A DNA stretch of 64,000 nt from Acidimicrobiales bacterium (GTDB taxonomy: Bacteria; Actinomycetota; Acidimicrobiia; Acidimicrobiales; MedAcidi-G1): NCBI GenBank assembly GCA_030748555.1, contig JASMLT010000002.1, positions 1 to 64,000 on the forward strand, written 5' to 3'. The position numbers and the translations under genes were made by a program. Below, one piece after another: positions 9,856-11,971 of this stretch; within the stretch, counting starts at the first letter, position 1, and each line of letters begins with the position of its first letter. The notes beneath the pieces are model-generated. The model was not told where the DNA came from, did no database searches, and worked only from the letters and a program-made list of their open reading frames with translations.

Positions 9856-10905
9856 ATGGATAACAAAACTTTAACTGTTCTGTCAGATAAGACTTCTATA
9901 GTCGAAGTTTCCTTGGAGAACAGCAGGCCTTGCATTAAAAAAACCGATGTTAAAGAAGTTTTGGGTTGGGAACTTAAAGACGAAGGACTTTGCAAAGAAA
10001 CAACCTGCGTCCCTGTGCCTGCAGACTTAGCTTCTAGCTCATCTGAGTTCGTTGACCTGTTAACACTCACCGAGGCACTCGGATTTTCGACTGTTCTCGA
10101 TACAGAAGCAGGATTTCTTGCTGTAGATTGCTTCTCTTCACTCCGTCACTCTGCTCTTTCAGAACGAAAGGCCCCAGACTTAAACCTTCCAGACCTTGAT
10201 GGAACTATACGTTCCCTTTCCGAATGGAGCGATAAGAAAAAGTTGCTTGTAGCTTTTTCGAGTTGGTGAGGATGTGCTTTTGATCTGCCAGGTTGGCAGA
10301 CGCTGTTTGAAGATTTAAAAGATGAAAATTTCGTCGTCATAGCAGTCGCTATAGACGAAAACATTGAAGCAATCAAAGAACTTGCAAAAGAAGCCACTTA
10401 CCCTGTTCTAATTGACGCTGACCATCTCTTCAGCGACCTTTACGCTGTCAGTAATGTACCAACTGTTATTTGGGTTGACGAAAACGACATTATTATCCGA
10501 CCAAATGCCGGAGAGTTTGGTAGTGACACTTTTGCTGAGTTAACCGGCATTTCTTGTGCGGACCACATGAATCAGGTCAAAGACTGGGTCACGGAAGGTA
10601 TCATCCCTGACGACGCTAACCATATTGTTGAAGACTTTGATCAAGATGAAATTACCGCTCGTCTGCATTTCAGAATTGCCGCTAATTCACTTAGAGTCGG
10701 ACTTGATGAAGTCTCCGAACAGCATTTTGAAAAAGCCGAAGAACTAGCGCCTTTGGATTTCACGATCGTACGGGCGTCCATGCCGCTTCGTGGCGGTAAT
10801 CCTTTTGGAGAGGAGTTTTTTGACCTTTATGAGAGGTATCAAAATGCTGGATCCCCTTATCATGGAATTCCACGTCGAACAGCAAGATTGGAAAAAAATG
10901 ACTAA
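9856..10905 (+). CDS. Redoxin/ResA-like thioredoxin-fold selenoprotein candidate; in-frame TGA (10267-10269) read as Sec, 349 aa
   Basis: ORFs 9856-10269 and 10567-10905 are in the same frame; the frame stays open between them (U-GCAFDLPGWQTLFEDLKDENFVVIAVAIDENIEAIKELAKEATYPVLIDADHLFSDLYAVSNVPTVIWVDEN...). Motif FSSW-U-GC plus NVPT cis-Pro loop of thioredoxin fold. Confidence 0.85.
10284..10300 (+). promoter_or_regulatory. Candidate bacterial SECIS hairpin
   Basis: TCTGCCA-GGT-TGGCAGA: 7-bp perfect stem, 3-nt loop beginning with G, loop 22 nt after the last base of UGA. Confidence 0.8.
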
Positions 10906-11971
10906 GAACGTAGTTGTCTGGGGAACTGGAAATGTCGGCAGGCTTGCAATAAGAGCAGTTGCTTCCCACGAAAAATTGAATCTAAGTGGTGTAATTGTTC
11001 ATAATGATTCCAAAGTCGGAAGGGATGCTGGATCTATAGCGGGTGTAAGCGACTTAGGAATAGTTGCGACCGATGATATTAAAATTGCAGAGTCGACTGA
11101 CGTGGATGCTGTTGTTTATACAGTGAATGCTGATTTCAGGCCCGACGAATCACTATCAGAGATTCTTCCTGTGCTTAGGGCTGGCACGAATGTGGTCTCG
11201 ACAAGTTTTCACCCATTGCTGCATCCACCATCCACTCCAGAGCCTATGCGTTCACAAGTTATCGAAGCCTGCGAGGAGGGTGATTCTTCTATTTTTGTTT
11301 CTGGCATCGACCCTGGTTGGATAATTGATGTGCTCCCCATCTTTTTGGCGAGTATGGGCTCGAATATTACCGAAGTGCGTGCTCAGGAAATCGCCAACTA
11401 CGCCGGTTATGACCAGCCGGATGCTGTCAGATTTTTATGCGGCTTTGGGCAACCAATGGAATACGAAGCCCCCATCCTGACTGATTGGGCTCTTATGCAA
11501 GTTTGGGCACCCATGATCAGGGTTTTAGCCGACGGTTTTCAAGTAGAACTGGAAGAAATTACAACTGAAGTTGACAAACGTCCTCTTGAAAAGAATGTTT
11601 TTGTTGAAGGAATGGGAGATTTCGAAACTGGAACTCAAGGTGCACTCCGTTTCGAAGTCAAAGGAATAGTTAATGGTAAACCTCTCTTGGTGATAGAGCA
11701 TGTAACAAGAATTGATGATGACTGTGCTCCTGATTGGCCGAAAAACAGCCCGGAGGGTGGGTTCCATAATGTGATCCTCACCGGAGATCCGTGTTTGACA
11801 GTTTCAGTCCATGGCGAAGACCCGGTTGACCCTGGTGCTGCATCAGGTGGAAATTTCACTGCGGCAAATCGAATTGTTAATGCAGTGATACCAGTTTGTG
11901 AATCTGAGTCCGGAATAATTCACCCACTTGATTTACCGACGAACCTAGGCTCTTCTCAGATAAAACAATAG
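10898..11971 (+). CDS. Dihydrodipicolinate reductase-like / amine dehydrogenase-like NAD(P)-binding protein
   Basis: MTKNVVVWGTGNVGRLAIRAVASHEKLNLSGVIVHNDSKVGRDAG; overlaps the selenoprotein stop by 8 bp. Confidence 0.75.
   Translation: MTKNVVVWGTGNVGRLAIRAVASHEKLNLSGVIVHNDSKVGRDAGSIAGVSDLGIVATDDIKIAESTDVDAVVYTVNADFRPDESLSEILPVLRAGTNVVSTSFHPLLHPPSTPEPMRSQVIEACEEGDSSIFVSGIDPGWIIDVLPIFLASMGSNITEVRAQEIANYAGYDQPDAVRFLCGFGQPMEYEAPILTDWALMQVWAPMIRVLADGFQVELEEITTEVDKRPLEKNVFVEGMGDFETGTQGALRFEVKGIVNGKPLLVIEHVTRIDDDCAPDWPKNSPEGGFHNVILTGDPCLTVSVHGEDPVDPGAASGGNFTAANRIVNAVIPVCESESGIIHPLDLPTNLGSSQIKQ

Follow-up and report, generated by a model that had tools for sequence, protein, structure and literature searches.

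A gene that is seemingly broken by a stop codon very probably represents a working selenoprotein gene in the window, the 64,000-nucleotide stretch of an Acidimicrobiales contig analysed here. With little room for doubt, it encodes a single 349-residue protein in which a downstream hairpin directs the UGA at codon 138 to be read as selenocysteine (Sec), giving a soluble thiol-disulfide oxidoreductase that resembles ResA/TlpA and has Sec-Gly-Cys at its active site. Comparative analysis establishes the conservation of the UGA, the presence of Cys at its position in relatives that lack Sec decoding, the co-occurrence of the UGA form with selA, selection on the hairpin, and the fold. Features of the locus are collected in Table 1.

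The original prediction of an in-frame TGA joining two open reading frames, with no other stop between them, is confirmed by translation. The frame spans 350 codons; with TGA read as U it yields 349 residues with a single U at residue 138 (LLVAFSSW-U-GCAFDLPGW) and a terminal TAA at 10903-10905. As anticipated, standard ORF calling recovers two pieces only, 9856-10269 (137 aa) and 10567-10905 (112 aa), the second being this short because the first start codon after the TGA lies at 10567. Such calling would thus drop residues 139-237 and with them most of the thioredoxin fold. The likely ATG of the downstream DapB_N-type gene (10898) creates an 8-nt overlap with the selenoprotein stop, an arrangement that fits ribosomes reaching the end of the frame.

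Table 1. Features of the selenoprotein locus (positions in the window).
Feature	Position	Strand	Description
Selenoprotein gene	9856..10905	+	349 codons + TAA; ResA/TlpA-like thioredoxin-fold protein, probably cytosolic
Codons 46-51, Cys46 and Cys51 (GLC-x4-CVP), N-terminal beta-rich domain	9991..10008	+	Invariant in 22/22 sequences
Thioredoxin-fold (AhpC-TSA/Redoxin) domain	10165..10521	+	Residues 104-222
UGA codon for Sec138	10267..10269	+	Aligned with first active-site Cys of ResA
Cys140 codon (TGT)	10273..10275	+	Partner Cys of the U-G-C site; invariant
SECIS hairpin TCTGCCA-GGT-TGGCAGA	10284..10300	+	Stem 10284-10290 / 10294-10300; loop GGU 10291-10293
C-terminal TPR-like helical hairpins	10558..10845	+	Residues about 235-330
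Next gene, DapB_N-type NAD(P)-binding protein	10898..11971	+	Neighbour kept across the genus

Seen in one genome alone, and in an assembly that is incomplete, such a locus would look like a pseudogene or a sequencing error, with the TGA as a nonsense mutation or a miscalled TGC/TGG between two dead or partial ORFs. Genomic comparison makes this reading exceedingly improbable. All ten genomes of the genus carry TGA at the U138 column (in the other nine the column was read directly, and each has a single in-frame TGA), with protein identities of 71-90% (69-90% in the gene-order comparison), the same gene order around the gene throughout, and neighbours that are 68-97% identical. In an order-wide sample of 348 genomes, 145 contained a match at E <= 1e-20, and among the matches listed that could be scored, 107 genomes have the TGA form and 17 an uninterrupted form. 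Direct reading of the column covered 46 distinct sequences, the assignment of the remaining TGA genomes being based only on a count of one TGA inside the match. More than 100 independently assembled genomes therefore share a single in-frame TGA, its column being the same in every sequence read directly; such recurrence rules out a read error. The decay that the original prediction had proposed looking for in relatives is not seen: frame and gene order are kept, there is no frameshift or other stop, and synonymous sites just downstream of the TGA are constrained (see below).

A second alternative, that a Trp or Gly code assigns a standard amino acid to the UGA, or that the codon is passed by nonspecific readthrough, would also give the full-length frame, but it is extremely unlikely. 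The homologue check proposed at the outset found the column of residue 138 occupied by U or Cys rather than Trp or Gly, and where uninterrupted forms were read codon by codon, in G058, G059, G038 and G293, TGC or TGT stands exactly at the TGA column. TGA also acts as a normal stop for other genes of the window, since opening it extends several ORFs only briefly. No other convincing TGA-interrupted frame was seen on inspection of the window and the next 20 kb. Finally, the TGA form tracks selA across the order. Among the matches listed, selA is present in 101/107 TGA-form genomes versus 4/17 stop-free genomes (Fisher p = 4e-10, a statistic that ignores phylogeny and so serves as a guide only). 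UGA-directed Sec insertion is thus the preferred reading, and none of the tests run with the potential to overturn it went against it.

Several individual homologues deserve mention in their own right. One (G334:C94:62842-63450) contains one TGA and one TAG and is a possible decaying copy. Genome G040 encodes about five copies of TGA-containing U-G-C proteins (contigs C193, C140, C156 and C164, and C176 in two pieces), a family expansion. A record titled Dehalococcoidia bacterium (PABN01000066.1, L047) carries a locus 82-97% identical to and syntenic with that of the window's genus, and is probably mislabelled or a mixed assembly. A search of a plasmid collection returned distant ResA-type matches only, plus one fragment on a plasmid of Streptomyces sp. 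NBC_00536 (L165, 14898-15450); this unannotated stretch matches residues 158-336 at 34% in two pieces and is perhaps a gene remnant.

The Sec machinery (SelA, SelB, SelD and tRNA-Sec) was searched in 61 genomes; it is present in the genus, whereas the genome itself yielded SelD only. Among named relatives, this genome is closest to Acidimicrobiaceae and MedAcidi-G1 marine actinobacteria. The other nine members of the genus encode SelA (9/9), SelB (9/9), tRNA-Sec (7/9) and SelD (7/9), selA adjoins selB, and ARAGORN calls a tRNA-SeC with anticodon TCA in 4/4 loci checked. Three of the Cys-form relatives (G058, G059 and G038) lack SelA, SelB, SelD and tRNA-Sec within the 61-genome sample, and no SelA was found in the fourth (G293). 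The window's own assembly (1.35 Mb, 70% complete) encodes SelD, a selenophosphate synthetase, on the same contig about 5 kb past the window end (C22:68972-69895, L117). The SelD gene itself has an in-frame TGA, making it a second selenoprotein gene on this contig.

SelA, SelB and tRNA-Sec were not found in this 70%-complete assembly, which is the point in favour of a third alternative: that the selenoprotein is real in the lineage, but that this species has lost Sec decoding and no longer translates its copy past the UGA. The absence is better explained as a gap, because the whole selAB neighbourhood is missing: the 20-kb selAB region of a 90%-identical sister genome (G005) has no counterpart in the assembly except a 118-base match near one end. 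Loss of decoding is further opposed by the presence of selA and selB in all nine sister genomes, by a SelD that is present with its own UGA, and by a selenoprotein copy that shows no decay; it is accordingly rated very unlikely, and a functional selenoprotein remains the favoured interpretation for this species as well. Candidates for the missing components were rejected. All SelB model matches in the genome fall under cut-off; the best lies in a frame of 408 aa that has one of 736 aa close by on its contig, a pair resembling EF-Tu and EF-G. The best tRNA-Sec match scored 43.8 against a cut-off of 47.

Exceptions to the co-occurrence pattern exist in both directions. Four genomes (G177, G359, G083 and G316) have selA together with a stop-free protein of the window type; here Sec may have been replaced by Cys while the machinery was retained, or the Cys form may be ancestral. 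Three genomes at 84-93% completeness (G037 [L042], G326 and G229) have the TGA form with no selA found, and these absences are probably gaps; G037 also lacks SelB, though SelD is present. Separately, in six genomes (G036:C33, G018:C36, G022:C3, G014:C7, G025:C37 and G055:C33) the main tRNA-Sec gene is accompanied by another, lower-scoring tRNA-Sec-like match (48.6-50.9 bits against a cut-off of 47).

The predicted SECIS element was recovered as described, with a 7-bp stem and a 3-nt GGU loop beginning 22 nt beyond the final base of the UGA. These values lie within the bSECIS limits set out in PMC13188914: a stem of 4-16 bp, a UGA-to-loop distance of 16-37 nt, and a loop of 3-9 nt with G within its first two bases, frequently with G or U next. 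The isolated 17-mer folds at -9.0 kcal/mol (z = -3.2), and in a 40-49-nt context the fold energy is no better than that of shuffles, so fold energy alone is insufficient proof of the hairpin, which is supplied instead by homology and codon evidence. Neither the window nor 10200-10400 gave a SECIS match in an Rfam scan; the sole sub-threshold match, Xist_exon4 (15 bits against a gathering score of 100), is attributed to chance.

The LPGWQ motif of the protein dictates much of the stem (CC/GG and T-A), and for this reason codon usage was analysed in the 46 distinct Sec sequences. The Leu at +6 is encoded by NTG (CTG or TTG) in 45/46, as compared with 14-61% NTG at other conserved Leu columns of the same protein, and the Gln at +10 by CAG in 44/46, as compared with 25-66% at other Gln columns. 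Within the stem, the third position of the Leu+6 codon is paired with the first position of the Gln codon. Both CAA cases (L040 and L129, from separate families) have TTG at the Leu, a change from CTG..CAG to TTG..CAA that is synonymous on both sides of one pair, and the outermost stem pair occurs in both U-A and C-G forms. The covariation score and the number of paired cells were each reached by 1/500 shuffles. Independent signal for the hairpin comes mostly from the third base of the Leu codon, the synonymous Leu/Gln swaps and the outer pair; judged from these sequence patterns, the RNA structure is under selection beyond the needs of the protein.

Structurally, the protein has a thioredoxin fold with extra domains on either side. 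The AhpC-TSA and Redoxin Pfam models both score over cut-off (PF00578, 49.2 bits versus 26), and an AlphaFold2 model (pLDDT 91.8, pTM 0.90) has ResA as its best structural match, with a TM of about 0.8 over the ResA domain. In a profile alignment, the first and second active-site Cys residues of ResA line up with U138 and C140 respectively, the spacing in the window protein being one residue shorter, in agreement with the claim that the TGA occupies a redox-Cys position. The C-terminal helices are similar to TPR repeats in a profile search. Compared with Bacillus subtilis ResA and other TlpA oxidoreductases, the fold is shared, but the U-G-C (UxC) site has one spacer residue in place of the two of CxxC, and N- and C-terminal domains are added. 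Unlike these extracytoplasmic, membrane-anchored proteins, it has no obvious signal peptide or anchor: inspection of MDNKTLTVLSDKTSIVEV for a hydrophobic N-terminal segment revealed none, so the protein is probably cytosolic.

The mention in the original prediction of a curated ResA-like WAxxUGC family proved correct in that such a family exists (NF041054, ResA-like WAxxUGC motif-containing protein, WAxxUGC_long), but the window protein falls outside it, scoring 181.8 bits against a cut-off of 300 and carrying FSSWUGC instead of WAxxUGC. Both types belong to the same order and share the thioredoxin fold, the U-G-C site and the N-terminal domain with its CxxxxC pair (residues 27-224 align to model positions 8-205), while the C-terminal part of the window protein is unmatched. 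Two genomes (G149 and G094) hold both as paralogs, with 522-552 bits for the NF041054 type and 192-213 bits for the window type. A tree of 60 domains separates the two types with 100/100 support. Sec occurs in both clades, and Cys rows lie among the Sec rows of the window clade, consistent with three changes, a count that long branches make uncertain. By sequence, the window protein is thus a member of a sister subfamily of NF041054 lying under the model cut-off, and ordinary gene calling would as a result likely split its gene.

The broader class has been described before. UGC-containing Prx-like selenoproteins (pfam00578, UGC) were reported in 2008 by Zhang and Gladyshev, who tabulated 46 of them from Global Ocean Sampling data (PMC2398784), and are listed again in PMC9312934; a UGC-containing TlpA (disulfide reductase) family is listed in PMC13188914. 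The window protein shares with these the PF00578 domain, a Sec within the UGC motif (SSW-U-GC) and a marine origin. In the accessible portions of these three sources, the class is defined by domain and motif alone, and no biochemical function was found for it. A literature search for WAxxUGC, and for MedAcidi with selenocysteine, returned no paper.

The proposed mechanism follows from this arrangement. SelB and tRNA-Sec(UCA) would read the UGA at codon 138 as selenocysteine, directed by the hairpin that starts 15 nt downstream. Relative to the CxxC motif of ResA, Sec138 would stand in for the nucleophilic Cys at the first position and Cys140 for the Cys at the second. By analogy, given the ResA alignment and general Sec chemistry, the enzyme most likely cycles through a Sec138-Cys140 selenenylsulfide with Sec as the nucleophile, probably reducing disulfides or peroxides. 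The invariant Cys46/Cys51 pair is a possible second redox pair or metal site and, as a guess, may pass electrons to Sec138; equally speculatively, the TPR-like tail may bind a partner or client protein. A fuller picture is offered tentatively and, far more doubtful than the selenoprotein assignment, is less likely than not: that of an undescribed, widespread Acidimicrobiia-type subfamily of cytosolic Sec-Gly-Cys oxidoreductases, with a CxxxxC electron relay and a client-selecting TPR-like tail, in which Sec changed to Cys more than once in lineages that lost Sec decoding.

Knowledge of the mechanism of Sec insertion is unchanged by this gene. While UGC-containing Prx-like/TlpA selenoproteins have been known since 2008, the well-supported addition is a further subfamily that automatic annotation would likely miss, with members in marine Acidimicrobiia that standard annotation would both split and truncate, and a whole sister clade left out by the curated NF041054 cut-off. 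Because Sec use in this family tracks selA closely across the order, it is a useful marker of selenium use in uncultured marine actinobacteria.
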